Positions 18,427 through 64,000 of a stretch of 64,000 nucleotides of DNA are shown one piece after another. This DNA is from Saprospiraceae bacterium. Lineage in GTDB: Bacteria > Bacteroidota > Bacteroidia > Chitinophagales > Saprospiraceae. A program made the position numbers and the translations under genes. The DNA lies in assembly GCA_020627965.1 (NCBI GenBank), contig JAHDFX010000003.1:1-64000 (forward strand). The letters run 5' to 3'. The first letter of the stretch is position 1. Each line of letters starts with the position of its first letter. A model generated the notes under the pieces. It ran no database searches. It was not told the DNA's origin and saw only the letters and a list, made by a program, of their open reading frames with translations.

Positions 18427-18501
18427 TAAATCGTGCTATTGATAAAACGTTTCCAGAGAGAAACTTTGTTACACAAATTGTTAAACCAAACTTCTAACAA
18501 C

Positions 18502-27500: not shown

Positions 27501-30500
27501 AGCAGGTATTGATAATTATCAACTTGTAGGCTCAAGTGTATCCGACGTTACAGTAGATTGGAGCTTAAATGGAGTAGCGCAACCTACTATCAATCAGGGG
27601 TGTGGAGATGTGAATTTTGATGTAACATGGGCACATAGTGATCCAACTGCATGTACTTCTGAAACACAAACCATAGATTATACAATTACCTGCGATGAAG
27701 ACGCTAATGCACAAATAGCTATGGGGTCTTACAGTATTGAGGTTTGGCCAACATTGACTCAGGATGTACATTATACCATACCTACAGGTTGCGATGCAAC
27801 AATCACAGACTTGTGTGCTGGTGCATTAACAATCCTATACGATGACGGAGCAGGTGGATCTATTGTAAATACAACACCTCCTGCATTGGCACCGCCAGCA
27901 ACAATTGCTTACAGTATTAATTTTACAGGAGCACCAGCAGGTTGTGAAGTTACAGGAACTATTACCACAGCAGATATTATTGCGACGGCTACATCTAATA
28001 GCCCAATTTGTGAAGGTGAAGACCTAGTCTTGATGGAAACTGGAGGGGCTGGAACTAACTGGACCTGGAGCAGTGATGGAGCAGCAACTTTTGATGATAA
28101 TACACTACAAAATCCTACAGCATCAGGAGCAGTTGATGGCGAAACTTTCACCGTTGTAGTAACTGATGACACAGGATGTTCAGCGACTTCTACAGTAACA
28201 ATTACAGTGAGTCCATTACCGATTGTTAGTATTAATGCTGCTGGCCCTTTCTGTGCAGAAGATACACCTGTATTGCTAGTGGGCAATCCGGCAGGAGGTA
28301 CATTCGGGGGCGGAGCTTATGTCGATGCCGCTGGAAACTTTGATCCTTCATTGGCAATAATAGGAATGAATCCTGTGACTTATTCAGTTACTCAGAATGG
28401 CTGTACAGTTGAGGATATGATCATGATTGAGGTTAATCAGGTAACAGCCGTTGCTGCATTAGACGGAAACGCTAGTTGTGATGAAGCCAATGGTAGTGCA
28501 ACTGTTGTTCCAGCAGGAGGTACAGTCGCAACAGATTATTCTTACATATGGGATAATGGTGAAACTACAGCTACTGCAGCTATGTTATTAGCAGGTGTAC
28601 ACACCGTAACAGTAACTGATGATGCAGGTTGTTCTGCAACGGCATCCGTAACTATAGGTGGAACACCTGACGTATTAATTGATAATGTTGTTTCTACAGA
28701 CGCAACTTGTGGCGGAAGCGATGGTACAGCAACTGTTACAGCAAGTGGTGGTACAGTTGTGGCCGATTATACTTATCTGTGGAGTGATAACCAGACTACA
28801 GCAACAGCTAGTAATCTAAGTTCGGGCTCATACACAGTTACAGTAACAGATGATAATGGATGTTTTGCAACTGCCTCAATAGGGGTAAGTGATGCAGGAG
28901 CACCAACGGTAGATAACATTACATCTACTGATGCTACCTGCGGAGCCGCGGATGGTACAGCAAGCGTCACAGCTAGTGGTGGTACAGTGGCTGCGGATTA
29001 TGGTTATCAATGGGATGACCCTGCTACGCAAACAACAGCTACTGCAACAGGATTGACCGCAGGAACATATAATGTTACAGTGACTGATGATCTGGGCTGT
29101 ATTGCTATTGATATGGTTGAAGTACTAGACATACCAGGACCTAGTATTGATGGAATTGCAACGACAACTGGAACTTGTGGTGACCCCACAGGAATTGCAG
29201 TGGTAACAGCAAGTGGCGGAACGGTTGCAACTGATTACTCATACGCATGGGATAATGGCGCAACTACAGCGGCAATAACTGACCTCGCAGCAGGTACATA
29301 TACAGTTACAGTGACTGATGACAATGGATGTACAACAACTGGATCAGTAGTAGTAGATAACACTGCAGGTCCTGCGATTGATAATATTTCAGGTACTGAT
29401 ACTGCTTGTGGAGATGCGAGTGGTACAGCAACTGTTACAGCAAGCGGTGGTACACCTGCTTATACATATCAATGGGATGATCCATTAGCGCAGACAACAG
29501 TTACAGCCGTTGGTTTATTGGCTGGTACTTATAATGTTACTGTAACAGATAATATTGGATGTACAGCAACTGCCGAAGTTACACTTACAGATTCACCAGG
29601 ACCGGCTCTTACTACAAGTGCTATGGATGCTACTTGTGGCAATGCTAATGGTACTGCAACTGTATCAGCTACAGGTGGACTTGCACCGTACACTTATCTG
29701 TGGGATGCCGCTACAGGCAACCAAACCACAGCAACAGCTACAGGTTTGGTCGCAGGTACTTATTCTGTTTTAGTATCAGATGACAATGGATGTCAAATAT
29801 CAGAAATGATAACAGTTGGCGATATTGCTGGACCAACAGCAGCAGCAGTTGCAACAGATGCAAACTGTGGTAATGCTGATGGAAGTGCTACGGCAACGGT
29901 TACAGGAGGTACGATCGTAACGGATTATACTTATCAATGGGATGCTAATGCAGGCAACCAGACCACGGCAACAGCTACAGGTTTGGCAGCAGGCACTTAT
30001 AGTGTAACTATTACTGATGATAATAACTGCCCGGCAGAAACCACAGTAACTGTAGGTGATACACCAGGACCAGTTGTAGATAGTGCGACGTCGACAGATG
30101 CAACCTGTGGAGGTAGCGATGGTACTGCAACCGTTGTAGCTAGTGGAGGCACAGCGGCAGTAGATTATACTTATCTCTGGGATGATGCTTCGGCACAAAC
30201 TACAGCAACAGCAACAGGTCTGTCAGCCGGTACCTATAATGTAACGGTGACTGATGATAATGGCTGTACTGTAACAGGTAATGTAGCTGTTAATGATCTT
30301 GGAGCCCCGAGTATTGCAAATACGTCTTCTACGGATGCTATTTGTGGCGGAAGCCAAGGCACAGCAACAGTAGCAGCTACAGGCGGAACAGTTGCTGTAG
30401 ATTACACCTACCTGTGGGATGATGCAGTTGCGCAAACAACAGCGACAGCGACAGGTTTAATTGCCGGAACATATAATGTAACAGTTACCGATGATATCGG

Positions 30501-32676
30501 TTGTTCTGTAATAGGATCAGTAACGGTAGCCGATATCGCAGGCCCTACTGTTAATAATACATTTGCATCTGATGCCAATTGTGGTGCTAGTGATGGCTCT
30601 GCAACGGTTATTGCTAGTGGAGGAACGGTAGCTGGTAGTTATTCTTATCAGTGGGATGATCCTGCTACACAAACAACGGCTACAGCTTCAGGACTTTCTG
30701 CCGGAATATATAATGTTACTGTAACCGATGACAATGGTTGTATAGCTATAGGTTCCGCAACAGTGGGAGGTACTGATGCACCTACTATTGATGAAACTTC
30801 ATCCGTAGATGCTACATGTGGCGATAGCGATGGTTCAGCTTCAGTAGTGGCTATTGGAGGAACACCTGGCTACACCTATCAGTGGGGTGATGCTTCTGCT
30901 CAAACTACGGCAACTGCTACAGGTTTAAGCGCTGGCACATATACAGTTACTGTAACTGATGCAAATGCTTGTGTAGCAACAGCATCTGCGACAGTTAGCG
31001 ATTCAGGCGCACCTTCTATTGATAATGTCAATTTCACAGATGCATCTTGCGGACAAGCGGACGGCAGTGTTACTTTGACAGTTAGTGGAGGAACAGTAGC
31101 AGCAGATTATATTTATCAATGGGATGATCCTGCTGCGCAGACTACAGCGACAGCAACAGGTTTAGCGGCAGGCACATATATAGTGACTGTAACAGATGAT
31201 CTGGGCTGTAATGCAATAACAGCAGTAGTTATTGGGGAAGAGACTTGTATATTCATTGGTGTTTCAAATAGCTTTAGTGCTGATGATCCTTGTACATGTA
31301 ATGGCGATCAATCTGCAAATGGTGCAGGAGATGGCACATTTAATGAAACAATTACAGTTACAGGACCTCCAAACGTAATTGTTCAGGCAAGTGCTGCTTC
31401 CACAGGACTTGATATTCCTGTTCCTGCAGCATTTATTGAAGTAGCTCCAGGACGTTATGAACTAACTTTCAATCATATTGATAGAATAGGTTATAATCTT
31501 GCAGTTGAATTTTCTGGAGATGGTGGACTTACTTTTGATAATGCCTTGAATGGCGCAGGATTACAATTGACGTTCTCTAATGTGTGTGCATATCCAGTGC
31601 TAGATTTTGTACCACTCGATATGGCTTATTGTGGTAATGATGCAGCTGTAGAGGTGAATGTATTGGAAGTTTCAACGGATGTTACCTTTACGGCAGTAGC
31701 TAATGAGCCTACTATAAGCATTGATAACGGTATAGCCGGACCTCCGCCGATTACATTTAATCCTTCTGCTTTGACAACAGGCTTCCATAATGTAGATGCT
31801 ACTTATGACTATGTAGCAGGAACAGGTATGGGAGGCACACTAGCTAGTCCAGCAATTGCGATTAATTCATGTCCGGTAACATATACTGAAATTGTTCAGA
31901 TATATGACCTGCCATCAGCTACAGTAACATGTACTGAAACTGGTATTATCAGTTTGGATAACATAACAGTACCTTCTGGTAATCTGAATGACCTGATGTA
32001 CGCACTAGATGGAGGAGCTTTTGGAACAAGTACTTCTTTTACTGTACCCGATGATGGTACGTATACCGTAAATATTATGGATACGAATACAGGATGTATA
32101 GTCGATGTTACAGCAAACTGTCTGCTTCCGCTTGAATTGACTTCATTTAAAGGAGAGTGTGCAGGTGGAGATTATGCTTTAGCATGGACGACTAATACTG
32201 AATCTAATATTTCACACTTCGTTATTGAACGTTCAGTAGACGCAACTAATTATACACGTATTGGAGAAGTACAGGCTGTTGGCAATTCCAATACAGTCCA
32301 GTATTATACCTTTACAGATCAAACCAGCTTGCTAGCTCGCTACTATTACAGATTGAGAATAGTAGAACTAGATGGTCTGGAAACTTTCTCAGGTGTTGTA
32401 GTTGCTGAATGTTTGAATGGTGAGTTTGGTGTAGTTGATGTATATCCGAATCCAACTGACAGTGAAGTGATTATTACTTATGAAATGACTGATAGAAAAG
32501 ATGTAGTATTCCGTTTGGTTGATGTACTTGGACGTACATTACATGAAGAAGTACTAGCACCAGAGATAGGTGTAAACACGAAAGTAATTGATATGGCTCA
32601 TCTGCCTTCTGCTATGTATTTCATTATACTTGATGATGGAAAACTACAATCTACTAAAAAAGTAGTCAGAAAATAA
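18502..32676 (+). CDS. giant T9SS-secreted surface protein: degenerate cytochrome-c-like domain, MAM/jelly-roll-like modules, Ig-like region, 12 SprB-like repeats, type A T9SS sorting domain
   Basis: Single ORF of about 4.7k aa. Signal peptide MIRKFTHFITSFLTIVSLMAMVGWTNNAHAQ starts at 18502 (track start 18433 is upstream). C-term 'VDVYPNPTDSEVIITYEM...MYFIILDDGKLQSTKKVVRK'. Confidence 0.93.
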   Translation: MIRKFTHFITSFLTIVSLMAMVGWTNNAHAQSCPDGVSYQWTDILTIFDNAGCNQTFGCHGGGASGLDLTTYAGFSAGGNQCGGTITSGTLLTEIITVGASCGVDAVPAMTTFGATVTTADLDAIQAWIDSGALEDCPSATCPAYDAAAIDTQLLCGDGTVNITATETTGCAGGDDVTINYTVGGVAQAEINQACGDIALAVPIAHSTPGGCTPETITVDFTATCDGDGTEKASGTYDIEIWPALTDGIHFVLPVAECDYNIADLCGDLVILYDDGMGGPIVNTSPPVAATPMTINYTISFNGAPAACELSGSMLKNCDGCPAFDTSVADATAVCDGDVVTVSATETTGCFVIEIANENFDDGVCAGTGGTAPAGWVISHTGTGTLGSFFYFDEPAINGAAGGTATGTNGNFSGCVMAMDDDAPGSGLIGTGTIESPVYDLTPYPSANLTLDYEYNWIGADNFVIEVFDGTAWIPVLGPLVADETGALDVDVTPYLNANFQVRFVLNDGAAWAWGAAIDNFAITSTLIEGVTVDWTVNGVTQPQIMAACGDLELMATMTGDPNACAVETQTITYSAACDTDGSVVSSGSFDIDVWPTPIEGVHYTLPTADCDATIVDECAGALTIMYDDGAGGMTATPPVLNTGSGLSVNYSVVFTGAPASCTATGSYTAICIGAFTCPTFNGITADQPDACNGATVCYTVEMDGASDPLLLSEDFESGVQPPGWTVTPNDGTELPVDWGAASNSNPGGAEPGSFAGTSPFISDEGAANFTQTCIVSPIVDMSSTILPTLSASWQHEGFAGDGDFTIEVWNGAAWDVLLLAIDDSDSGEEDAAFVTGSDCVGATPAGGPVGDPDVFDISCYNNADFQVRFCYVNEDPTDAGGNWGASIDNVVIEQQAAANYGITWNTPVGATLVSGGTAEDLTSCYTLATNLTCGVDIQNAPITVDCVNNGVFDSNLFTGNTPNVSVYGIPAQGVDFELPSEECNSDIGNFCGAGLTILYDDGAGGPINSPTPPIIIGATAVNYIVQSTGAPAGCGVTGILNIPCGIPCPSYDVAVPDATNICDGETAVITVPELSGCLTQILAQENFDACVAPPGWVTTHSVGDPIANGDGDPYFVFDGTAVPGGAGANPNFSGCIAVLDDDQPSAALLGIGTLTAPAEDLTPFNSAFLSFDWGYTNIGADNFVVEVFDGTAWVLVLGPLAASGSGTENIDVSPYINGNFQVRFVLDDGGAWAWGVGIDNYMIEVSIVSDVTVNWNLDAVAQPSINQSCGDISLSTPLTMADPTGCVAEERVIDYRAFCDDDGSEIAAGNVSIFVYPTPVAGTHYTLPAGGCDATIADLCGSLEILYDDGAGGPVTNTTPPILVDGDALTINYSIAVPGAPANCTVTGSYESICITNLPCAVFNNLTADLTETCDGATVCYTVDLTDETQPILLSEDFESGVQPAGWTVTSNGTALPVNWASTGNPAGAGPLTGNSVLIDDTGAANPDQTCIVTPIVDMSSTILPTLSLNWQHEGFAGSGDFTIEVFNGAIWDVLLFAQDDSDSSEDDPDVSGGDCAGAFPTGGPVGDPDIFDLSCYSNADFQVRFCYIDEDNGGGNWGANVDNVLIEQSLPPNYTIAWSAPAGATLISGGGTQDQVTCYQLATTACGSEVQNAPIVVDCLDGNGAINGNLFTGNIPDVTVYSAPVEGADFTLPSAECDATIIDNCGGALTILYDDGFGGPITNTNPPLLTTPSAVNYIVMVTGAPAGCEATGVMNIPCGSNCPGYNPATIDNLIVCDGATVNVTATETSGCLSVTVVDENFDDGICAGTGGTAPAGWTVDFNAVAGAELGNFFYFDEPAANGAAGTSDTGDNPNFAGCIAALDDDAPGAGLVGVGIMTTDTYNLSNFSSANMTFDYEYNNIGADQFYVEVFDGTAWVQVLGPLTADATASANIDLTPYQNAAFQTRFVLDDGGAWAWGAAIDNFMIEATSISTVTVDWDVDGTAQPPITSQACGDVALAYTIAMADPNGCAAETQTISYTITCDEEATILDQGTFDVEVWPNPVEGVHYTLSTTACDGTITDLCGGGALAIFYGDGMGGPVNNPTPPTITASTLVDYSIKFTNDASGCSGVIGSYQVSCNACPTYDPPAIDVTEICTGESVNITATENTGCQTTFAAYTLPLTGTTNQVADWSPLTGRPNVGGTTLSANNPPYTLIPLQVDVTGTYVINSAFDFDGYLLLYTDPLDLTLNPPTTYVAGDDDGPNGTADAEVSVTLNAFQNYYIIVTAFGTASGNYTVTFPTIPAGAQIGQGAILGDDVTVNWTIDGVAQTPFTQVCGDIDWSPTLDMTDPNACMPETQTIAYSATCDGDGSEVSTGSFDVTLYPTPVAGVHFTLPTADCDATIVDECAGALTILYDDGAGGPITNATPPVVVQGTSLTINYTVVYTGAPVECTTAGSYEAVCIGNFMCPTFNGVTADVTEACDGTVVCYNVDMDGEAQPILLSEDFESGVQPIGWTVTPNDGTGLPVNWASTANPGGAGPLTGTSVLIDDTGAANFVQTCVVSPIVDLSSATSPTLSLNWQHEGFVADGDFTIEVWNGVSWDVLLLALDDSDSSEDDPDVSGTDCTGALPIGGPVGDPDVFDISCYSNADFQVRFCYVNENMADDGGNWGASIDNVVIEQLALTNFDVAWSTPPGATLVSGGGVDDLTTCYALSTALTCGSEVQNAPIVVNCSNNGTFDSELFNGNVPDVTLYGIPIEGTDFVLPTAECDATIVNNCGATILYDDGAGGPIVNTTPPTINGPTQVNYIVQSAGAPATCGATGLLNIPCGIPCPNYDVPLAGTAVCDGDATAVTVTELSGCLEVIVGEENFDACALPAGWTATHSAGDPLVEGDGDPYFNFAATTVPGGAGINPNFSGCIGLLDEDAPSAALVGVGTLTAPAADLTPFNSASLSFDWGYNNIGADNFTVEVFDGTAWVPVLGTLIEDGFGTENIDVSPYINASFQVRFVLDDGAAWGWGAGIDNYQLVGSSVSDVTVDWSLNGVAQPTINQGCGDVNFDVTWAHSDPTACTSETQTIDYTITCDEDANAQIAMGSYSIEVWPTLTQDVHYTIPTGCDATITDLCAGALTILYDDGAGGSIVNTTPPALAPPATIAYSINFTGAPAGCEVTGTITTADIIATATSNSPICEGEDLVLMETGGAGTNWTWSSDGAATFDDNTLQNPTASGAVDGETFTVVVTDDTGCSATSTVTITVSPLPIVSINAAGPFCAEDTPVLLVGNPAGGTFGGGAYVDAAGNFDPSLAIIGMNPVTYSVTQNGCTVEDMIMIEVNQVTAVAALDGNASCDEANGSATVVPAGGTVATDYSYIWDNGETTATAAMLLAGVHTVTVTDDAGCSATASVTIGGTPDVLIDNVVSTDATCGGSDGTATVTASGGTVVADYTYLWSDNQTTATASNLSSGSYTVTVTDDNGCFATASIGVSDAGAPTVDNITSTDATCGAADGTASVTASGGTVAADYGYQWDDPATQTTATATGLTAGTYNVTVTDDLGCIAIDMVEVLDIPGPSIDGIATTTGTCGDPTGIAVVTASGGTVATDYSYAWDNGATTAAITDLAAGTYTVTVTDDNGCTTTGSVVVDNTAGPAIDNISGTDTACGDASGTATVTASGGTPAYTYQWDDPLAQTTVTAVGLLAGTYNVTVTDNIGCTATAEVTLTDSPGPALTTSAMDATCGNANGTATVSATGGLAPYTYLWDAATGNQTTATATGLVAGTYSVLVSDDNGCQISEMITVGDIAGPTAAAVATDANCGNADGSATATVTGGTIVTDYTYQWDANAGNQTTATATGLAAGTYSVTITDDNNCPAETTVTVGDTPGPVVDSATSTDATCGGSDGTATVVASGGTAAVDYTYLWDDASAQTTATATGLSAGTYNVTVTDDNGCTVTGNVAVNDLGAPSIANTSSTDAICGGSQGTATVAATGGTVAVDYTYLWDDAVAQTTATATGLIAGTYNVTVTDDIGCSVIGSVTVADIAGPTVNNTFASDANCGASDGSATVIASGGTVAGSYSYQWDDPATQTTATASGLSAGIYNVTVTDDNGCIAIGSATVGGTDAPTIDETSSVDATCGDSDGSASVVAIGGTPGYTYQWGDASAQTTATATGLSAGTYTVTVTDANACVATASATVSDSGAPSIDNVNFTDASCGQADGSVTLTVSGGTVAADYIYQWDDPAAQTTATATGLAAGTYIVTVTDDLGCNAITAVVIGEETCIFIGVSNSFSADDPCTCNGDQSANGAGDGTFNETITVTGPPNVIVQASAASTGLDIPVPAAFIEVAPGRYELTFNHIDRIGYNLAVEFSGDGGLTFDNALNGAGLQLTFSNVCAYPVLDFVPLDMAYCGNDAAVEVNVLEVSTDVTFTAVANEPTISIDNGIAGPPPITFNPSALTTGFHNVDATYDYVAGTGMGGTLASPAIAINSCPVTYTEIVQIYDLPSATVTCTETGIISLDNITVPSGNLNDLMYALDGGAFGTSTSFTVPDDGTYTVNIMDTNTGCIVDVTANCLLPLELTSFKGECAGGDYALAWTTNTESNISHFVIERSVDATNYTRIGEVQAVGNSNTVQYYTFTDQTSLLARYYYRLRIVELDGLETFSGVVVAECLNGEFGVVDVYPNPTDSEVIITYEMTDRKDVVFRLVDVLGRTLHEEVLAPEIGVNTKVIDMAHLPSAMYFIILDDGKLQSTKKVVRK
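28441..31235 (+). repeat. SprB-like tandem repeat array, 12 units
   Basis: Twelve 'DATCGGSDGTATVTASGG..YTYLWD...TTATATGLSAGTYNVTVTDDNGC' units counted by eye. Confidence 0.9.
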
Positions 32677-33363: not shown

Positions 33364-36300
33364 ATGAGAATAAGATATGTATTGCTTACACTTTTGTGTG
33401 TAACATACTTCGGACTTAATATGTCAGCACAATCCTGTCCAGATGGTGTTAGTTATCAATGGAGTGATATGTTGACACTTTTTAATGATAATGGTTGTAA
33501 TCAAGCAACCTGTCATGGAGGAACACCGGGTTCTGGTGGGCTCAACCTGACAACTTATGCTAATTTTTCAACTGGTGGTAATAAATGTGGTACTGAAATT
33601 CAAACAGGTAATACGTTGACTAACATTATTGATGTTGGTACTCAAGCTTGTGCTGGAGGTACTATAGGACTTTCCATGAATACCTTTACTGGAGGTACTG
33701 TAGATGCGGCAGAACTGGCAGATATTCAAGCCTGGGTAGATGCCGGTGTTCCTGAATTTTGCCCACCTGCGCTTACGCCAGATTCTTTCTGCGGGGCTAT
33801 TCCATTAACAGTTGATGCTGCTTTTTGTGATGGTACAACTACAAATGGAGACAATACAGGAGCAACTACAGAAACAGGAGAACCCGTTTTATCCTGCGGC
33901 TTTGGTGGTGATGGTATACAAAATACAGTATGGTTTAGTTTTGTAGCACCAGCTAGCGGAGTAGTTACTGTGTCCACAGATTTTGCTGGTGGTACTAATT
34001 TAGATACTCAAATTTCTGTTTATGAATATACTGGTGCAGCTTGCCCAAATCCTGACTTGACTCTTCTTGCAGAAGTTGGGTGTATTGACGATGGAGGAAC
34101 GGTAGCACCTTACCTTTCTTTACTGAGTAATCTTAATGTAACACCAGGTCAAACTTACTATGTACAAGTAGATGGCTATGCTGCTACAGCTGGTACTTTC
34201 TGTTTGGAAGTAACAGGTGGCGCAGCTCCGTGTGACGCTGCACCCGCATATGTAGATGTTGACGCATTGGCGACTTCGGCTACACCTATTCTTTACTGTG
34301 GCTCTGATACAAATATAGGACTAGGTGCCAACGATGACCCCGCCATGATTTATATCGCTTTTGCCCCAACGGGTGGCGGTACTTATGATGTAACAACTAC
34401 AGATGGACAATTATATACTTCAACTAATCCTGTTACGCTTCAAGGAACTACACTTCTTGGACTACCTAATCTGAATATTGCTTATATCGGTATTACCCAG
34501 GCTGAGATTGATGCCTCTGGAGGTACTACTACTTTGACCTTTAATGAAGGTGCAGTAACATGTGATGTAGACTTGGTTATTGATTGGAGCACGGTTACGA
34601 ACTCTAACGATATAGAGCAAATATGCCCGCCACCAGCTTGTGATCTTATAGGTAATGTATCTGCAACAACGACTTGTGTAAGTACAACAGAATTTGAAGT
34701 AAGTGTAACCATTGATGTCGCAGCTACAGGAACTGGTTTTGATATTACAAACGATCAAAATGCAGAAACTTTAACAGTGGCAGGAGCAGGAACATATACT
34801 TTTACAGGCAGTTTTACACAAGGAACGACTGTTAATGTTACTGTAACACAAACTGCCCCAGTTGTTGCTGGTTGTGCGGATACAGTAGTCGCTACAGAAG
34901 CAGATTGTTCTTGTTTCAATAATCCGCCTGCAAATGATGAATGTGCTAATGCACAACCATTGACAATAAATACTGATGGAACTTGTACTGTTGTAAACAC
35001 AACAAATACAGATAATAGCTGTGCAACGGATTCTAGCCCTATATCAGGTGCCCCTGATGCATCTTGTACTGACGCTGATCCTGCACCTTTGGACATTTGG
35101 TTCTCTGTTGTAGCACCAGCTGATGGTGCTTTCGATGTAACCTTGAATGTAGTTCCAGGTGTATCTTCCATAATTGAGTTATATGACAATTGTGCAGGAC
35201 CACCAGTAGCAGGTCAGCTTTGTGATAATTTACAAGTGACCAGCTTTACGGGTTTAGTTGGTGGACAAACTTACTTCTTGAGGCTTTGGGATTTCGGTAG
35301 TAATGATTTTGGAGTACACGAAATTTGTGTGTCTTCTTGTGATGCACCTCCTGCAAATGACGAATGTGCTAATGCTGAAATACTGACTCCAGGTTCTTCT
35401 TGTGTACCAGTTACAGGAACAGTTGCCTGTGCAACAGATTCTGGCGTTCCTGCCTGTACTGATGCTGCAACAGCAGTGCCTGATGATGATGTATGGTATC
35501 AATTTGCCGCAACTACAGATAATCCATTTATTCAGGTTACAGGTAGCGCAGGTTTCGATGCTGTATTAGAAGTATTTGACGCATGTGCTGGTACTTCATT
35601 GGCTTGTGCTGATGCCACTGCCGGTGGAGGTGTAGAAGCTATTGATGGAGGAACTGTAGCTGGTATTACAACAGGAAATACTTATCTTATCCGAGTGTAT
35701 GATTTTGGAACAGGTGCACCTGCAACGCAAACCTTTGATATTTGCGTAACCGAAACGGTAGGTTGTGATGGCTCTACTTGCTCAAATCCATCCTGCTCAA
35801 TTAATACAACAGCTTTAAATGATTTACCAACAGTATATGCTGACTTGGCTGCTAATAGCTTTACACCCGCAACAAGCGGCGGATCAGTGACTGTTTGTGC
35901 ACCATTTGTATATACAGGAACATCCGGTGAAGCGACGATTACTACAGCTCCTATTTTTGGAGAAGTAGGTGATGCAGATGCTATTACAGAATGTACTTCC
36001 ATGGAAACCAGTATTGAGGTGTTTGGTGAAGGAGGCGTTCCTGGCATTATTGATTGCGGAACTCCTATTTCAACTACCGGAGACTTGACTGGACTTACTA
36101 ATGGAAATACGTACCATGTTTGTGTTACTTATGATATTCAGGATGATCTGACAGCAGGTGATGGAACTGTAGAAGGTACCTGTACGCTAACTGAAATTGG
36201 ACTAGCTGTTACACCAACTGAATGTTTTGCTGATGCTGGTACATATGCTACCTCTGCGACTTCTGGTGATGTTGTTTGTTTTGGTGAAACAGTAACGTTT

Positions 36301-39300
36301 ACAACTAATGGAGACTGGGCGAATCCTTCAGGTTCGGCAGCGGGAGACCAAGCTGCACCTGCTGGTATTATTTGGGGAATCTGGAGTGCAGATCCTATGG
36401 GAGCTTACCCAATTGGTGATCCAACTTTCCTTGGAGTGTATGGCTCTGATCCAACTAATGCAAATGGAATTTCAGATTTTACAAACAATGCAGGTGGCGG
36501 ATCTGTCTGGATCGCACCTATAGCATCTACAGATGAAGCAAATCTAATTGTTGGTTCTGCTGATTGCTTTGAGGTAGGTACTGCTACTGAGCTTATACTT
36601 CTGGATGACCTTTCGGTTGAATTAGGTACATTCGGTTGTAATGCCGGTAGCACAGGTTACGATGCTATGTTGACCAACTTTGCTGGAGGTCTTCCTGGCT
36701 TTGATGGTGGAGCTACTTCTTATACCATTACTGCTGATGCAGGTACTTTATCATCAACTACAGCTGCACCAGGTGGCTCTGTTGATATTACAGATATTCC
36801 ACCAGCAACAGCCGTCAATATAACAATTACAGACAATCAGGGATGTTCGCAAGCTTTTACATTGACTACGCCTACTTTGCCAACACCAACATTGACAATT
36901 GGCACTGATTATTGCTCAACAGATGCAGATGATGCAACAGTAACTTACGGACCTGTCCCTACGGATTTTGGTACTATAGTTATCACAATGTTAGGTGATC
37001 TATATGTGGATACTGAAACATCTATTGATGTACTGGATAATGCAGGCAATATTGTCGCTAATTTCCCTGTAGGAACTTTTGCAGCAAGTGTTGCTACAGT
37101 TGTTTCTGCTACAGTAGATGTTTCTGCCGGACCATTCTCAATAGTCGTAGATGATCTTTATGGAGATGGACTACAAGGTGCTACTTGTGGATTTGGTGGT
37201 ACAGATGGTACAATTACTGTCGATGATGGACAAGGTACTAACCTATTAGCGACTTTCTCTGATACAGGAGATGGCGCATGTGGTGGTGCAGGTTCAGCAA
37301 ATACTTATTTAGTTGGTACGCCAGCTATAGATTTCTCAACAACAGGTACACTATCTTCTACAGGTGGTGGATTAACAGATAATGGAGATGGAACAGCTAC
37401 TTTCAGCCCATCAACAGCAGGTGTAGGTACTTATGATGTAACTTATACTTTTACGGATGCAAATGGTTGTACAGGAACAACAACTACTACAGTAACAGTA
37501 GGGGTATCTATAGATAATGTTACTTCTACTACAGAAACTTGTGGTGATATTAATGGTACTGCCACAGCAACAGTAACAACAGGTACAGCACCTTATACTT
37601 ATGCATGGAATAACGGACAAACTGGAGCAACAGCAATAGGCTTGGCAGCGGGTTCATACACCCTTACGGTTACAGATGCAAATGGTTGTACGGCAACAGG
37701 TAGTGCAGTCGTAGTTAATATTGCTGGTCCTACACTGAGTACTTCTTCTACGGATGCTTCTTGTGGAGCTACTGACGGTTCTGCAACAGTTACTCCAGCA
37801 GGAGGAACAATGCCTTATACTTATTTATGGGTTGATGGACAAACTACAGCAACAGCTACTGGCCTGGGAGCTGGTAACTACGGTGTTACCGTAACGGATG
37901 CTAATGGTTGTACAGAAACAGCTACAGCATCCGTAGTAGATCTTGCTGCGCCAACATTAGCAGCAACTTCTCCAGCAGATGCGAGTTGTACAGCTAATGA
38001 CGCAACAGCAACAGCAACACCAACAGGCGGAACAGCACCTTATTCTTATGTATGGAGTGATGGACAAACTATGGCAACAGCTACTGGTTTAGCTTCAGGT
38101 ACATATACAGTTACAGTGACTGACGGTAATGGCTGTTCAGCAGTAGCTTCAGTAGCAGTAACAGATATTGCAGCACCAACACTAGCAGCAACTTCTCCGG
38201 CAGACGCAAGTTGTGCAGCAGGTGATGCAACAGCAACAGCAACACCAACAGGCGGTATGATGCCAATGACTTACTTATGGAGTAATGGACAAACCGCAGC
38301 AACAGCTACTGGTCTGACTTCCGGTATGTATACAGTAACGGTAACGGATGGCAATGGCTGTACAGCTAATGCTGCTGTAATGGTCACTGATCTGATTGGT
38401 CCGTCTATTGATAATACTTCTTCTACAGATGCTTCTTGTGGTGCCACTGATGGCTCAGCAACAGTTACAGCATCAGGTGGAACTGCACCTTATACTTATG
38501 CATGGACAGGTGGGCAGACTGCGGCAACAGCTACTGGCCTGGGAGCTGGTAACTATGATGTTACCGTAACAGATGCTAACGGTTGTACCGCAACATCTAC
38601 AGCATCAGTAGTTGATCTAGCTGCGCCGACATTAGCAGCAACTTCGCCAGCAGATGCGAGTTGTGCAGCGAATGACGCAACAGCAACAGCAACACCTACA
38701 GGCGGAACAGCGCCTTATACTTATGTATGGAGTGATAACCAAACCGCAGCAACAGCTACAGGCTTAGCTTCAGGTACATATACAGTTACAGTGACTGATG
38801 ACAATGGCTGTTCAGCAGTAGCTTCAGTAGCAGTAACAGATATTGTTGCGCCAACATTAGCAGCAGCTTCTCCGACAGATGCCAGTTGTACAGCAGGTGA
38901 TGCAACAGCAACAGCAACACCAACAGGCGGTATGATGCCAATGACTTACTTATGGAGTGATGGACAAACAGCAGCAACGGCTACTGGTCTGACTTCAGGT
39001 ACATACACAGTTACAGTAACAGATGCTAATGGCTGTACAGCTAATGCTTCAGTTGCTGTTACGGATATAGCTAATCCATCAGTCAATGCTTCTTCTACCA
39101 TCGAAACTTGCGGTGATGCTAATGGTACAGTGACTGCAACACCAACAGGTGTAGCACCATTCAGCTATGCATGGAGTAGTGGACAAAGTACAGCAACTGT
39201 AACAGGCTTATCAGTTGGTTCTTATACCGTAACGGTAACAGATGCTAACGGTTGTCAGGCAATAGCTTCAGCGGGTATAGCCAATATCGCTGGACCTTCG

Positions 39301-41625
39301 CTAACAGCAGCTTCTCCAGCAGATGCCAGTTGTGCAGCAGATGATGCAACAGCAACTGCAACAGGAACAGGCGGAACAGCTCCTTTGACTTACTTATGGA
39401 ATGATGGACAAACCACAGCAATGGCTACCGGCCTGGCTTCAGGTACATACACAGTAACTGTAACAGACGCTAATAACTGTACAGAAGTAGCTTCAGTGAC
39501 GGTAACGGATATTGCTGCACCTACAGTAGCAGCAGCTTCTCCTACAGATACGAGTTGTGCAGCAGATGATGCAACAGCGATAGCAACACCTACAGGTGGA
39601 GTAATGCCAATGACTTATCTATGGAGCGATGGACAAACTACAGCTACTGCTATTGATCTGTCTTCCGGCAATTATACAGTAACGATTACAGATGCCAATG
39701 GCTGTACAGCCAATGCTGCTGTAACGGTTAATGATCTGATTGGTCCAGCTATTGATAACATTTCGTCTACAGATGCGTCTTGTGGAGCTAATGATGGTAC
39801 TGCTACAGTAGTAGCCTCAGGTGGAACAGCTCCTTATACTTACTTATGGAGTGATGGACAAACTATGGCGACAGCAACAGGTTTGACTTCAGGAAACTAC
39901 GGTATCACAGTTACAGATGCTAATGGTTGTCCGGCAGTCAGTACAGCTAATGTGAGCGATTCTGGTGCACCTACAGTAGATAATACTTCATCTACCAATG
40001 CTTCTTGTGGAGGCGCTGATGGTACAGCTACAGTAGCAGCTTCAGGAGGTACGCCGCCATATACTTATTTATGGGATGATGCTGGCGCACAAACTGCTGC
40101 AACAGCAACAGGACTTGCTCCTGGAACTTATAATGTTACCGTAAATGACGGACTTGGTTGTTCTGCTTCATCATCTGTAATCGTAGCTGAAGATGCTTGC
40201 GTATTCGTTGATGTAATGAATGACTTTAGTGCTAATGATCCTTGTGCTTGTAATAACGATCAATCTGCCAATGGTGCAGGAGATGGTACTTTCTCAGAAA
40301 CAGTTACAGTTACAGGCCCTCCAGGGTTGATCGTTCAGGCTAGTGTAGCTTCATCTGGAATGGATATTCCTGCTCCGGCAGCATTTACAGAGGTAGCTCC
40401 AGGTCGTTATGTGTTAACTTTTAATCATGTAGATAGATTGGGGTATCAGGTATTTGTTGAATTTTCTTCTGATGGAGGAAACACATTTGATAATGCATTG
40501 AACGCAGCTGGTAATCAATTAACTATTAGTAACGTTTGTGCTTATCCGGTGATAGCATTTACGACTGCTTTGCCAAATCAACTTTGTGCAGATGATGCAG
40601 CTATTAACCTAATACTTGTTGAAACATCAACTGATGTTACATTTTCACCATTAACGACAACAGTGACTGTAGATGGAGGTGGTGCAGCGGCTACACCTTT
40701 CTTGTTTAGTCCGGCAGTAGTAGGTGCTGGAGCTCATACGGTGACTGCTACATACGATTATAGTGTAGGAACAGGTATGGGCGGAACACTAGCTAATCCG
40801 GCCATTCCAATCAATGCTTGTCCAGTCTCTTTTACTCAGAATGTTACAATTAACGCATTGCCAACAGCAACGGCAGCTTGTTCTGAAAATGGATTGATTA
40901 GCTTGTCGAATATTGTTGCGCCATCGGGCGATTTAAACGATTTGACTTACTCTATTGATGGTACAAATTTTGGAACTTCTTCTGACTTTACAGTAACTGC
41001 TGATGGTATGTATATTGTAACGATCCTGGATAATACGACGGGTTGTACAGCAGAAGTGACAGCAGATTGTCTGCTTCCACTTGATCTGATAGCCTTTACA
41101 GGAACTGTTGAAAGTCAAGGTAATTACCTGAAGTGGACGACACTAACGGAAGAAAATTCGGATGCATTTATCGTAGAATATAGTACTGATGCATTGGCAT
41201 TTACGGAAGTAGGAAGAGTAGAAGCAGCAGGTAATTCTACCAATGCATTGAACTATAACTTCCTCGACGAAAATACCACATTTGGTATTCATTATTATCG
41301 TTTGCAAATGTTGGATCTGGATGGTAGCTTCGAGTATTCTGAGATTATTACACTGGAAAGACGCCCTGATTCTGACGTAATTACTTTCTTCCCGAATCCG
41401 GTAGAAGATAAAGCTACAGTCATTATTAGCGCACCAGCTAATGATAATGATGCTAAGATGATTATTGCAGATGTACTTGGACGTACAGTATTGGAGTTCG
41501 ACGTCTCAGTGTTGAATGGAGATAATACATTTGAAATTGATCTGGATAAATTAAGCAGTGGTATGTATGTGATTTACTTTGATAGTAGAAACAAACGTAA
41601 CATGCTGAAATTTATTAAGAAATAA
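33364..41625 (+). CDS. giant T9SS-secreted surface protein: degenerate cytochrome-c-like domain, PPC-like domains, 12 SprB-like repeats, type A T9SS sorting domain
   Basis: 2753 aa. N-term '[30 protein letters not shown]' and C-terminal third homologous to the upstream giant. Tail '[16 protein letters not shown]...[21 protein letters not shown]'. Confidence 0.93.
   Translation: [2753 protein letters not shown]
37500..40195 (+). repeat. SprB-like tandem repeat array, 12 units, with a higher-order 675-bp (3-unit) duplication
   Basis: Twelve '[48 protein letters not shown]' units; matching blocks offset by 675 bp (38.1 kb and 38.8 kb). Confidence 0.9.
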
Positions 41626-56176: not shown

Positions 56177-56209
56177 TTTGCATTTTAAATCAATTTTGTT
56201 GTAAATTTG
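56177..56209 (+). promoter_or_regulatory. Bacteroidetes-type promoter TTTG-N21-TAAATTTG
   Basis: TTTG 56177-56180 and TAAATTTG 56202-56209, matching the TTTG/TAnnTTTG architecture, about 42 nt upstream of the first tRNA-like RNA. Confidence 0.6.
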
Positions 56210-56250
56210 TAATAACAAATCAAGCGAAAGGCTTGATGAAATTAAAATAC

Positions 56251-56393
56251 TGTGAGGTGATGAAATTGGCAGACATGCCCTCTTGTCTCGAGGGTGAGGA
56301 TAATAGGATAAACGTAGTATATCGGGTTGACCACTAAAGTTGATTTGTACTATAGCTAACTACCTCGTGAAGGTTCGACCCCTTCTCTCACAG
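56251..56393 (+). ncRNA. tRNA-like RNA, copy 1, with expanded (about 74 nt) variable domain
   Basis: Acceptor TGTGAGG/TCTCACA; D-arm ATG-AAATTGGCAGA-CAT; anticodon arm CCCTC-TTGTCTC-GAGGG; T-arm GAAGG-TTCGACC-CCTTC; G73; no encoded CCA. Confidence 0.75.
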
Positions 56394-56431
56394 CTACGAA
56401 CTCAAATGAGAGTTCTCTATGACAAAAATAC

Positions 56432-56574
56432 TGTGAGGTGATGAAATTGGCAGACATGCCCTCTTGTCTCGAGGGTGAAGATAACGGGATAAACGTAGTA
56501 TATCGGGTTGACCACTAAAGTTAATTTGTGCTATGGCTAACCACTTCGTGAAGGTTCGACCCCTTCTCTCACAG
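56432..56574 (+). ncRNA. tRNA-like RNA, copy 2, with expanded variable domain
   Basis: Tandem copy at +181 bp. Acceptor, D-, anticodon and T-arms are identical to copy 1; 8 transitions in the variable domain. Confidence 0.75.
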
Positions 56575-56593
56575 CGATACCAGGCGAATTTTA

Positions 56594-56634
56594 AAAAGCG
56601 GAAATGACTGATGTTGTTTCCGCTTTTGCTTTTT
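56594..56634 (+). terminator. Rho-independent terminator after the tRNA-like pair
   Basis: AAAAGCGGAAA (56594-56604) / TTTCCGCTTTT (56617-56627) then GCTTTTT. Confidence 0.88.
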
Positions 56635-56707
56635 CTATCTGTATCTTTATTTTTCTGATTCGTTATGATAATGTTTTGTTTGTAAACTCCTATTTTAAAG
56701 AAAAAAA

Positions 56708-59991: not shown

Positions 59992-62900
59992 ATGAAAAAG
60001 ACAATACTATCATCATTTATATTGCTGACTGCACTTTTTATTAATTTCAATAATACAACCCAAGCAGAATCCGTCCCGGGAATGGATGGAATATTTACAA
60101 TTGAAACACTGACCGTTTGTGAAAATATTTACAGCTTTACAACGACCGAGGAAGTTTGTAGTGGCACATTACCAGTATTTACAATTGGACCAGATTGTAG
60201 CGCAGTCCCTGATCCTTTCGGTACAGAACTAGACCTTGATTTTTTCATATATGCACCAGGTGGTGTACAACAACAAGCACCTGCTGGCTATGATCCAATG
60301 GGCGGTTTGTTAGTCGATAATAACTTTCCGCCATCCAATACAGACCTACTACTTGATGGGGGAGTTGGTGAAACCTGGAACGGGACAATTTGTGCAGATC
60401 ATATGGGAAATAATGCATTGACTAACAATTCTTGTGAACCTATTGTAATCACATACTTTGTACTACCCTGGGATCGAAGTTTTGACTCAGATGGAGATGG
60501 TTCTTTCGGCGAATATAACCAAACGGCTCCTGATGCATGCCCGATTTTACGCTATGATATAACAGTATACCCAAGTTTTAATACAATTGTAACAGATAAC
60601 GGTTGTGAAATTTTTGTAGAGCTGGTTACTGGAGATGGCACAGCCTGTTCAACAGAAACTTATACTTGTTCGGTAGCGGGAGATTCTTTCAGCTACGATT
60701 TTTCTAATGGGATAAACACGCCTTTAGATTGTTTTAGCCTGTATGGAACAGTTACCTGCACAGGTTGTAATACTTGTGAGGACCTATCCGCTGCAATAAC
60801 TACAACGCCCCCAGAATGTTCAGATAATACTCAGGCATATTTGGATTCATTAACTTACGAGTTCTTACCTGTTCCTAACAATAATGGTACTGCTACAGTA
60901 GCTGTTGATGGTGGAGAAGGAGCCTATGAATATCTATGGAGCAATGGAGATACAAGCCCTACAGCAACGAATCTGAATTCAGGACCAGTAAGTATTACCG
61001 TAACTGATGTAACAACAGGCTGCGTAGTAATAAGCAGTTCAGTTGTAGACACTATCCCACCTTTGGAGCTTAATATTATTTCTGTTATAGATGCTACCTG
61101 TGGACAATCTAATGGCTCGGTCACTGTAGAATATAGCGGAGGAAATGGAGCACCTTATGCTATATTTTTAGGTGAAAATGGTATATCCGACACTCTATCT
61201 GGTCCAGGAACATTTACTATTGACAATTTATCACCGGGAAGCCATGTTGTTTCAGTTTGTGATGGCGGATGGTGCTTTGTAGGTACTATCGTTGAAATAG
61301 GAGATGTTGCCCCTTTTACAGCACAGATGTTTACGGAATCACCGACATGTTCCAATAATACGGATGGTTATTTTAATACAGGAAACCCACCGCCTACAGA
61401 AGATGGTAGTGCTATGCTTGTTATTTCTGGCGGGACTGCTCCGTTTTCCTACCAATGGAGTAATGGCAGCACTCAGTCATCCTCAGATAATTTACCCAGT
61501 GGCCCGATTAGCGTAACGATCACAGATGCTACAGGTTGCCCTATTCTAGTTGAAGGTATGGTTGAGGAAGTTCCTCCAATAGAAGTAGTTTATACAGTTA
61601 CGGATGTAAGTTGTAATGGTCTTGCCGATGGAGCTATCGCAATTGATTTCAGTGGTGGAAATGGTGGAGGTTATGTCCTGTTTTTGGATGGGGCAATTAT
61701 TCCAGGATCATACACTGCTGGTACTTATGTCTTTGACGGACTCGAAGCCGGTATTTATGAGGTAGTGGTATGTGATGAAGCTGGTTGTTGGATAGTCGTC
61801 ACTATTGAGGTGATTGAAAGCCCTGAGCTGGATATCGAGATCATAACAACTCCGCCTACCTGTTCTTCAAATTCAGAAGGCTATGGAGATGTTAATAATC
61901 CAGCTCCTGCTCTAGTGTCAGATGGTACTGCCGAAGTATCAGTAGTCGGTGGAACACCTCCTTATCTGTATTTCTGGAACACTGCTGATACGACTTCTTT
62001 AATAGGTGGACTTAGTCCAGGAACTGTAACAGTGACCGTAACCGATGCTAATGGCTGTACTGCAACAGCAGAAGCAGAAGTTGAAGATCTGCCACCACTT
62101 TATGCCACGCTTTTGGAAGCTAATAATCCTTCTTGCCCTGGCGAATCCGATGGTTCTATTACTATCGAATATGGTGGTGGAAATGGTCCTGTCTTTACAA
62201 TATGGCTCAATGGAACATTAGTTACAGGTTTGCTAAATACTGATGGAACTTACACTTTTGACAATTTACCGGCAGGTACCTATGAAATAGCTGTTTGTGA
62301 TAATAATCTTTGTATTATTTACCTTACGGTAACATTAGAAGACCCGCAAGGGTTATCTATTGTAACAGTGACTAATTCACCAACGTGCCCTGATAATGCA
62401 GATGCGCAGTGGGATATAAACACACCTCCGCCTACCGATGATGGTTCTGCTATAGTTACTGTTTCAGGTGGGATGCCTCCTTATAATTATCAATGGAGTA
62501 ATGGTGACACACTCGCTACAACTGAAGGACTAAGTGCTGGAGTATATACTGTTACTGTTACGGATGCCAACGACTGTATTGCTACTGCAGAGGTAGAGGT
62601 AGAGGAAGTTGAACCACTTTATGGAACTATAACAGCTACAGACCTAAGCTGTAATGGGTATTCAGATGGAACAATAACAATTGATTACGGTGGTGGAAAT
62701 GGCGGTGGATTTATCCTTATTGTAAATGGAAATAGCTATCCAGTAGGAGGAGCTGGTACTTACACGATTGAAGATTTGCCTGCGGGGACTTATGAAATTA
62801 TAGTATGCGATATTGCAGGATGTATTTTAGTGCTGACTGCCGAAATTGAGGAGGCGCCCGTACTGGAAGTTGAGATCGTAACAACCAGACCTACCTGTTC

Positions 62901-64000
62901 TTCAAATTCAGATGGCTACGGAAGTGTGAACAATCCTGATCCTGCTCCAGTGTCAGATGGTACTGCCGAAGCATTAGTAGTCGGTGGAACACCTCCTTAT
63001 GCGTATTACTGGAACACTGCTGATACGACTTCTTTAATAGGTGGACTTAGTCCAGGAACCGTAACAGTGACCGTAACCGATGCTAATGGCTGTACTGCAA
63101 CAGCAGAAGCAGAAGTCGAAGATTTACCACCACTTTACATAACACCCGTAGATATTGTTGATCCTTTCTGTAATGGTGATTCGACGGGTTCTATTACTGT
63201 AGAATATGGCGGAGGAAATGGTTTTGGTTTTGTTTTCTGGCTGAACGGAGCCCTCGGAGGAGGTATGTTCAACAATGACGGAACCTACACCTTTGATAAT
63301 TTGCCGGCTGGTGAATATGAGATAGCGCTTTGCGATATTAGATTCTGTATTATCTACCTTACGGTAACATTGGAAGAACCTGAAGGCCTGTATATAGAAG
63401 CTACTGCGGATTCTCCAACTTGCCCTGATAATGCTATTGGATTATTAGATGTAAATACACCTGCTCCTTCTGATGATGGTTCTGTCAGTGTGGATAGTAT
63501 CTCAGGAGGTACAGCGCCTTATACTATCTTGTGGAGTACAGGTGATACAACTGCAACTGTCACTGATTTAAGTCCGGGAATTTATACTGTTACTGTAACA
63601 GATGATAACGACTGTACAGTCACATCAGAAGTAGAAGTAGAAGAACTCGAAGATATTTACGGAACGGTATCAAGTACAGATGCAAGCTGCGGTAGCACTG
63701 CCGATGGCACGATCACTGTAGAATATGGCGGTGGAAATGGAGGAGGATTTATCATTATTGTAAATGGGACGCCTTATTCAGACGCCGCAGGAGCAGGTAC
63801 TTACAGTTTTGAAGACTTAGCTGCCGGAACCTATGAAATCATTGTATGTGATATTAATGGTTGTATTATAGTTTTAACAGCTGAAATTGGTGAATCTTCA
63901 ACTCTGGAGCAAGAAGCAACATTATATCAGCCAGCATGTCCGGGAGACGAAGGTATCATTGATCTGACCGTATGGGGAGGAGAGGCACCTTATTCTTTTG
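59992..64000 (+). CDS. third giant secreted repeat protein, 3'-incomplete at window edge
   Basis: ATG at 59992 with signal peptide MKKTILSSFILLTALFINFNNTTQA; SprB-like repeats ('YLWSNGDTSPTATNLNSGPVSITVTD') follow in frame to the window end. Absent from the ORF track, presumably because it has no stop inside the window. Confidence 0.88.
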   Translation, partial: MKKTILSSFILLTALFINFNNTTQAESVPGMDGIFTIETLTVCENIYSFTTTEEVCSGTLPVFTIGPDCSAVPDPFGTELDLDFFIYAPGGVQQQAPAGYDPMGGLLVDNNFPPSNTDLLLDGGVGETWNGTICADHMGNNALTNNSCEPIVITYFVLPWDRSFDSDGDGSFGEYNQTAPDACPILRYDITVYPSFNTIVTDNGCEIFVELVTGDGTACSTETYTCSVAGDSFSYDFSNGINTPLDCFSLYGTVTCTGCNTCEDLSAAITTTPPECSDNTQAYLDSLTYEFLPVPNNNGTATVAVDGGEGAYEYLWSNGDTSPTATNLNSGPVSITVTDVTTGCVVISSSVVDTIPPLELNIISVIDATCGQSNGSVTVEYSGGNGAPYAIFLGENGISDTLSGPGTFTIDNLSPGSHVVSVCDGGWCFVGTIVEIGDVAPFTAQMFTESPTCSNNTDGYFNTGNPPPTEDGSAMLVISGGTAPFSYQWSNGSTQSSSDNLPSGPISVTITDATGCPILVEGMVEEVPPIEVVYTVTDVSCNGLADGAIAIDFSGGNGGGYVLFLDGAIIPGSYTAGTYVFDGLEAGIYEVVVCDEAGCWIVVTIEVIESPELDIEIITTPPTCSSNSEGYGDVNNPAPALVSDGTAEVSVVGGTPPYLYFWNTADTTSLIGGLSPGTVTVTVTDANGCTATAEAEVEDLPPLYATLLEANNPSCPGESDGSITIEYGGGNGPVFTIWLNGTLVTGLLNTDGTYTFDNLPAGTYEIAVCDNNLCIIYLTVTLEDPQGLSIVTVTNSPTCPDNADAQWDINTPPPTDDGSAIVTVSGGMPPYNYQWSNGDTLATTEGLSAGVYTVTVTDANDCIATAEVEVEEVEPLYGTITATDLSCNGYSDGTITIDYGGGNGGGFILIVNGNSYPVGGAGTYTIEDLPAGTYEIIVCDIAGCILVLTAEIEEAPVLEVEIVTTRPTCSSNSDGYGSVNNPDPAPVSDGTAEALVVGGTPPYAYYWNTADTTSLIGGLSPGTVTVTVTDANGCTATAEAEVEDLPPLYITPVDIVDPFCNGDSTGSITVEYGGGNGFGFVFWLNGALGGGMFNNDGTYTFDNLPAGEYEIALCDIRFCIIYLTVTLEEPEGLYIEATADSPTCPDNAIGLLDVNTPAPSDDGSVSVDSISGGTAPYTILWSTGDTTATVTDLSPGIYTVTVTDDNDCTVTSEVEVEELEDIYGTVSSTDASCGSTADGTITVEYGGGNGGGFIIIVNGTPYSDAAGAGTYSFEDLAAGTYEIIVCDINGCIIVLTAEIGESSTLEQEATLYQPACPGDEGIIDLTVWGGEAPYSF
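60780..64000 (+). repeat. alternating two-module repeat array with 1035-bp higher-order period
   Basis: A module (SprB-like '..WSNGDT..VTVTDANGC') alternates with B module ('EYGGGNGGGF..GTYTFDNLPAGTYEIIVCD..GC'); 'tgttcttcaaattcaga' recurs at 61861 and 62896. Confidence 0.85.

Follow-up and report, generated by a model that had tools for sequence, protein, structure and literature searches.

tRNA-dependent asparagine synthesis is among the closest described systems to the RNA reported here. In Deinococcus, Thermus and Bdellovibrio, AspRS and GatCAB act on tRNA-Asn; AspRS and GatCAB determinants, U1-A72 among them, are shared with the RNA described below. Bacteria that have AsnRS, GlnRS and GatCAB classically rely on tRNA-Asn charged by a relaxed AspRS (PMC4206432). 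The Asp identity set comprises G73, G34, U35, C36 and C38; U1-A72 is the amidotransferase determinant that confers amidation of Asp-tRNA(Asn), and amidation of tRNA-Asp is blocked by G1-C72 and U20a (PMC9976931). H31/G83 are the determinants of a non-discriminating AspRS, and tRNA-Sec is a long-arm tRNA whose amino acid is converted after charging. To our knowledge, no tRNA-like RNA has been described whose dedicated task is the synthesis of an amino acid instead of decoding.

Here we analyse a tandem pair of tRNA-like RNAs on the + strand of a 64,000-nucleotide stretch of DNA (the window). As in the described route, the RNA occurs in genomes that have both AsnRS and GlnRS and lack canonical AsnB; the carrier we propose differs in being a separate RNA with an Asp anticodon and an unusual loop, and in occurring beside just one AspRS, which lacks the signature of non-discriminating enzymes. 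The RNA shares G34-U35-C36, C38 and G73 with tRNA-Asp but has a Leu-like D arm, a type II arm of up to ~150 nt, U1-A72, no U20a and a pyrimidine at 37. tRNA-Leu and other type II tRNAs, the best background matches to our model, share its 3-bp D stem, G18-G19-N20-A21 loop and type II arm, but not its Asp anticodon, its G73 or its score (at least 86 bits, against at most 64 for background tRNAs). tRNA-Sec decodes UGA and is charged by SerRS, whereas this RNA has a 7-bp acceptor stem and GUC. Its anticodon arm is intact where tmRNA has a tag reading frame and pseudoknots, and some phages that bear it carry a separate tmRNA. Like the phage RNAs GOLLD and ROOL, it is phage-borne and found near tRNA arrays (PMC12286853), and like the HIV-1 DIS it can present the purine-flanked palindromic loops GCGCGC and GUGCAC, a hint of possible homodimers (PMC5874298). 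Unlike these RNAs it is far smaller, tRNA-shaped and chromosomal in bacteria, and its palindromes are clear in just the phage copies and certain bacterial clades. The open-access literature we searched contained no description of it.

A type II tRNA core with a covarying variable domain

The core is a type II tRNA with a long, structured and covarying variable domain (Table 1). The acceptor stem has 7 bp, the D arm 3 bp (as in tRNA-Leu) and the anticodon stem, which bears a GUC loop, 5 bp; a type II variable arm and a 5-bp T arm follow, and the RNA ends with G73 and an encoded C74. The cloverleaf of an elongator tRNA is complete: all four arms (acceptor, D, anticodon and T) are there, as are G18-G19 and the T-loop. 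Across the family, helix V3 bears a short hairpin in some members and a larger part with GGGUUGACCAC in others.

Table 1. Positions of the two RNA copies, their parts (numbered in copy 1) and flanking signals in the window
Feature	Position	Strand	Details and basis
Bacteroidota-type promoter, TTTG-N21-TAAATTTG	56177..56209	+	Sequence motif upstream of the pair
tRNA-like RNA, copy 1	56251..56394	+	U1 to G73 (56251-56393) plus encoded C74; covariance model R1, 111.7 bits; BLAST relatives
Acceptor 5' strand	56251..56257	+	Pairs with 56386-56392; U1-A72 (227/228), G2-C71; G73 (228/228) at 56393
D arm	56260..56276	+	3 bp; loop G18 G19 N20 A21, no 20a nucleotide
Anticodon arm	56278..56294	+	GUC 56285-56287, U37 at 56288, C38 at 56289
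Variable domain	56296..56366	+	Structured; covariation
Helix V1	56296-56299/56363-56366	+	4 bp; covariation
Helix V2	56304-56306/56360-56362	+	3 bp; covariation; asymmetric bulge between V1 and V2
Internal loop, 6x4	56307-56312/56356-56359	+	GAUAAA/CUAA; covariation-based structure
V3 closing pair	56313/56355	+	Covariation; switches among C-G, U-A and G-C across the family
Helix V3	56314-56319/56348-56353	+	Covariation
Conserved element GGGUUGACCAC	56324..56334	+	Same or near-identical form in 129/228 unique copies
Apical stretch AAGUUGAUUU	56337..56346	+	Self-complementary if G.U pairs are counted; corresponds to the palindromic loop in phage copies
T arm	56369..56385	+	Copy comparison and covariation alignment
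tRNA-like RNA, copy 2	56432..56575	+	R1, 108.2 bits; 8 transitions from copy 1; 56432-56574 without C74
Hairpin terminator with T run	56594..56635	+	Stem 56594-56604/56617-56627

The two copies differ in a manner that preserves structure. Over 151 aligned bases (56244-56394 against 56425-56575) there are exactly 8 differences, at 56298, 56304, 56305, 56342, 56349, 56354, 56361 and 56364; all are transitions and all fall inside the variable domain. When 8 random changes were placed over the whole RNA, such confinement arose in 0.4% of trials. G56298:C56364 becomes A:T and A56305:T56361 becomes G:C, and two or more double-changed pairs of this kind arose in only 0.5% of simulations that put all 8 random changes inside the variable domain. 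T56318-A56349 becomes T.G, which keeps the pairing, and T56304-A56362 becomes C-A in copy 2, which breaks it. The change at 56342 sits in the loop stretch AAGUU[G/A]AUUU, self-complementary when G.U pairs are counted.

Homologs confirm the helices. On 139 distinct sequences and 31 pairs, 96.7% of cells are paired, against 83.9% after shuffling and 48–61% when partners are slid. Changes on both sides occur at 25 of the 31 pairs (14.7 in shuffles), and the covariation score of 0.430 (0.177 shuffled) was reached by none of 500 shuffles. This alignment was fitted to a covariance model; two independent results agree with it. RNAalifold returned the same structure without being given it, and when pairs were counted with hand-set anchors in 60 clusters (identity below 85%), V1, V2 and the V3 closing pair were 95–100% paired, whereas shuffles gave 57–75% at the pairs that vary. 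All 60 clusters have A at four of the six 5'-side positions of the internal loop. Single-sequence folding energy is uninformative (z -0.62); the structure is visible through covariation only. On the covariation over the 139 sequences, decay or a pseudogene is rejected.

These results bear out a first-pass annotation made from the sequence alone. It had reported that the copies differ by 8 transitions, none outside the variable domain, with two compensatory pairs, one T.G wobble and one broken pair, and each of these claims proved exact. The pairs it proposed are real and correspond to V1, V2 and V3, as two alignments (29 and 139 distinct sequences) confirm, with a small correction to V3: the closing pair is C56313-G56355, and A56354 (G in copy 2) is bulged. 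The change at 56342 had not been discussed. Its reading, that an extended helix of the variable arm is under selection and not decaying, is supported by covariation among homologs; this was the check it had named, and the outcome was strongly positive. The wide distribution of the RNA, its Asp and GatCAB identity elements and its probable function lay beyond its view.

The RNA belongs to a widespread family that Rfam does not match. BLAST found it in 43 of 101 related genomes. An IUPAC pattern scan of GTDB returned at least 120 contigs; all records named to phylum were Bacteroidota, plus one Ignavibacteriales MAG. The same pattern matched 95 viral contigs, three of which have their viral nature backed by terminase, portal, DNA polymerase and GroEL genes. 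Removing duplicates left 228 unique sequences from Bacteroidota genomes and viral contigs. The pattern forced the anticodon and C38, and the BLAST-derived set was free of this constraint. INPHARED phages and PLSDB plasmids gave no match. A covariance model built from 29 compact members and run on 393 genomes of the phylum separated family members (at least 86 bits) from background tRNAs (at most 64 bits). One genome, G188, scored 60.7 bits under the strict filter and 99.4 bits when its locus was searched alone. In the window's own genome the family is represented by these two copies only; the best other match reached 47 bits and has the size of ordinary type II tRNAs. Within the window, ARAGORN made no calls, tmRNA included, and Rfam release 15 gave no tRNA, tmRNA or other known RNA at the gathering cut-off or at E<=10. 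Rfam also missed the family at eight further loci. Compact phage relatives, unlike the window copies, are called tRNA-Asp by ARAGORN.

The window copies are free-standing genes with their own promoter and terminator, as judged from sequence alone. TANNTTTG lies within 100 nt upstream of 98 of 126 bacterial loci (9.7 expected), and a terminator follows 110 of 136 bacterial copies (20.4 expected); phage copies show little of either signal. In these bacteria and phages, many genes for ordinary tRNAs also seem to encode C74 without the full CCA, so the conserved C74 of the tRNA-like RNA is normal here.

Identity elements and genomic co-occurrence

The identity elements point to AspRS and GatCAB. 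G34, U35, C36, C38 and G73 are present in all 228 copies, and in every BLAST-derived copy as well. U1-A72 occurs in 227 of 228, in place of the G1-C72 of bacterial tRNA-Asp, and a 20a nucleotide in none. The family thereby meets the sequence rule for a GatCAB substrate, U1-A72 present and U20a absent, and the host tRNA-Asp carries both amidation blocks. The anticodon loop is atypical of a decoding tRNA, for which U33 and a purine at 37 are expected. A purine at 37 is found in 3 of 228 copies (pyrimidine in 225), compared with 205 of 210 ordinary tRNAs from the fetched contigs. U33 is kept in 202 of 228 (89%) and lost in 26, compared with 207 of 210 ordinary tRNAs keeping it, and G33 is fixed in whole clades. 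With the Asp set, U1-A72 without 20a and atypical positions 33 and 37, the RNA looks suited to AspRS and GatCAB and not to the ribosome. Charging by AspRS and amidation by GatCAB are inferred from sequence alone, without biochemistry. The absence of G1-C72, which helps AspRS place the acceptor end, counts against Asp charging.

GatB co-occurs with the RNA almost perfectly. From the covariance-model scan we picked 50 genomes with the RNA (35, G188 counted among them) or without it (15). Absence rests on the strict filter that missed G188, an RNA-bearing genome. GatB, the only GatCAB subunit covered (GatA and GatC were not), is present in 35/35 genomes with the RNA and 2/15 without. Both exceptions lack GlnRS and so need GatCAB for Gln-tRNA. 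Among the 43 genomes with both GlnRS and AsnRS there is no exception: GatB is present in all 30 with the RNA and in none of the 13 without. The co-occurrence was not corrected for phylogeny, which the Fisher value for the association ignores; the relation is nonetheless not a single event, because it is repeated inside two families (f21 and f23).

Genomes with the RNA lack canonical AsnB. Its two-segment alignment pattern was found solely in genomes without the RNA (9 of 15). Under the curated model NF006949 (cutoff 499), five of five proteins from genomes without the RNA pass at 609–637 bits, against none of five AsnB-like proteins from genomes with it (275–307 bits). Two RNA-bearing genomes have no AsnB-like protein at all, three more have only sub-cutoff paralogs, and AsnA occurs in 3 of 35. 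Most RNA-bearing genomes do have AsnB-like paralogs above the broad TIGR01536 cutoff; these might make Asn, a possibility that counts against the carrier reading below. AspRS and AsnRS are present in all 50 genomes. A dedicated second AspRS is rejected, every genome having a single one; this enzyme is alike in genomes with and without the RNA and does not show the H31/G83 type.

A putative carrier for asparagine synthesis and its rivals

By a modest margin, we favour the view that the RNA is a dedicated carrier, probably without a part in decoding: AspRS would load it with Asp, and GatCAB would amidate this Asp to Asn. Charging, amidation and release of Asn are all inferred, with no biochemistry or expression data. 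The RNA would be processed by RNase P and completed to CCA from the encoded C74. The single housekeeping AspRS would then charge it with Asp, and GatCAB would convert Asp-RNA to Asn-RNA. Asn would be freed by an unknown route for AsnRS and metabolism. The unusual loop and bulky variable domain are predicted to bar Asn-RNA from the decoding of Asp codons. That domain may in addition serve as a docking site for partners or let two RNAs pair, and phage copies in tRNA arrays would perhaps sustain Asn supply during infection. Because the AspRS is not of the relaxed H31/G83 type, a separate RNA with an Asp anticodon would be a simple way to load Asp for amidation. Two further points count against this reading: a tRNA-Asn with U1-A72 is itself a possible carrier, and U33 is kept in 89% of copies. 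We lean against a bolder version, in which the RNA defines a new class, a non-decoding tRNA derivative with amino-acid metabolism as its sole task, acting as a dedicated RNA cofactor for the synthesis of free asparagine by AspRS and GatCAB; the neighbouring asparagine-type regulator would control it, a palindrome-linked dimer would scaffold AspRS and GatCAB, and phages would carry it to keep up Asn supply.

Ordinary tRNA-Asn offers one rival. As in Bdellovibrio, a non-discriminating AspRS could charge tRNA-Asn and GatCAB could act on the product, leaving the RNA an unrelated role. In a published survey, genera that combine GatCAB with both AsnRS and GlnRS, Bacteroidetes among them, do have a U1-A72 tRNA-Asn (PMC4206432), and RNA-bearing genomes, like Bdellovibrio, have one AspRS. 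We nevertheless think this unlikely: it leaves unexplained both the combination of an Asp anticodon with U1-A72 and the exact co-occurrence with GatB, and the AspRS is not of the H31/G83 type whether or not the RNA is present.

Decoding and decoy functions are also improbable. A decoding isoacceptor, tRNA-Asp or Asn-for-Asp, with an unusual variable arm, serving some growth stage or phages, would fit GUC in all copies, U33 in 89% and phage copies in tRNA arrays. Against it stand pyrimidine 37 in 225/228, G33 throughout whole clades, U1-A72 in place of the bacterial G1-C72, and a canonical tRNA-Asp in the same genome and the same phages; the last also rejects replacement of tRNA-Asp. Alternatively, an uncharged mimic could titrate AspRS or an AsnC/Lrp protein, or bait anticodon nucleases during phage infection. 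Carriage by phages with full tRNA sets, the structured variable domain and the adjacent regulator gene speak for such a decoy. We doubt it: a mere binder would not need G73, C74 and U1-A72, which are kept essentially without exception, and the GatB and AsnB pattern is not predicted.

If true, the carrier reading would account for Asn supply in bacteria without the usual asparagine-making enzyme. It would also explain the recorded puzzle of why bacteria with AsnRS and GlnRS retain GatCAB (PMC4206432). The RNA would be the first case known to us of its kind; in it, what a tRNA is charged with would be uncoupled from what it decodes, and phages would be shown to carry a metabolic RNA.

Phage copies, palindromes and genomic neighbourhood

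Phage copies can sit among other tRNA genes. On several viral contigs the RNA is embedded in tRNA arrays, together with canonical tRNA-Asp and in some cases tmRNA. Four (L200, L224, L232 and L235) combine large tRNA sets, tmRNA and the tRNA-like RNA, most of them with canonical tRNA-Asp. Three viral loci (L172:1229, L203:7348 and L252:2567) carry a compact relative that has the same core but with A1-U72, and a short variable arm without GAUAAA/CUAA; ARAGORN calls it tRNA-Asp. The carrier model predicts that these A1-U72 relatives should escape amidation. The window's own genome has a second odd GUC tRNA (L280, G000:C386:14686-14759) with the loop TTGTCTA (U37, A38) and a tRNA-Asp-like body ending G73-C74; it scores 27 bits with the family model.

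Palindromes are strong in phage loops and weak in bacterial ones. Of 30 distinct phage loops after GGGUUGACCAC, 24 are perfect palindromes of 6–12 nt (6.5 expected), and many of them are unrelated in sequence; viral examples are L177, L186, L206, L208, L225 and L232. With a perfect palindrome taken as 6 nt or more, bacterial loops have one in 19 of 61 cases (12.3 expected), and the window copies are self-complementary only via G.U. Cyclobacteriaceae copies (e.g. L057, L060, L076) have the apical loop CGAGCTCG. The palindrome is rejected as a universal feature, since beyond the phage copies it is strong in no more than some clades of bacteria. The phage set includes GCGCGC and GUGCAC flanked by purines, the two sequences that prevail in the HIV-1 dimerisation loop (PMC5874298). 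By analogy, and with no dimerisation data, phage loops may possibly mediate RNA homodimers.

An AsnC/Lrp-type regulator is a recurrent neighbour. It lies divergently 122–262 bp from the RNA in 49 of 120 bacterial contigs spanning many genera. All 34 RNA-bearing genomes listed at that stage have an ortholog, adjacent to the RNA in 24 as counted from positions; in the window's genome it is on a different contig. A regulator existing solely for the RNA is rejected: four genomes without the RNA keep a close ortholog, and no RNA remnant was found beside it there. A search for a shared dyad motif between regulator and RNA gave only AT-rich repeats and no clear operator, and a conserved downstream partner gene is rejected, none recurring across genera. 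In one genome without the RNA (L297, G150:C1:175056-176673), the best AsnC/Lrp match is divergent from an asparagine-synthase-like gene 119 bp away; in another (L296, G434:C54), the end of an AsnC/Lrp-type regulator gene lies ~90 bp from the end of a convergent AsnRS gene. The window also holds giant open frames at 18433-32676 (4747 aa), 33364-41625 (2753 aa) and 59992-64000 (>1336 aa), the last encoding a repeat-rich, probably secreted protein.
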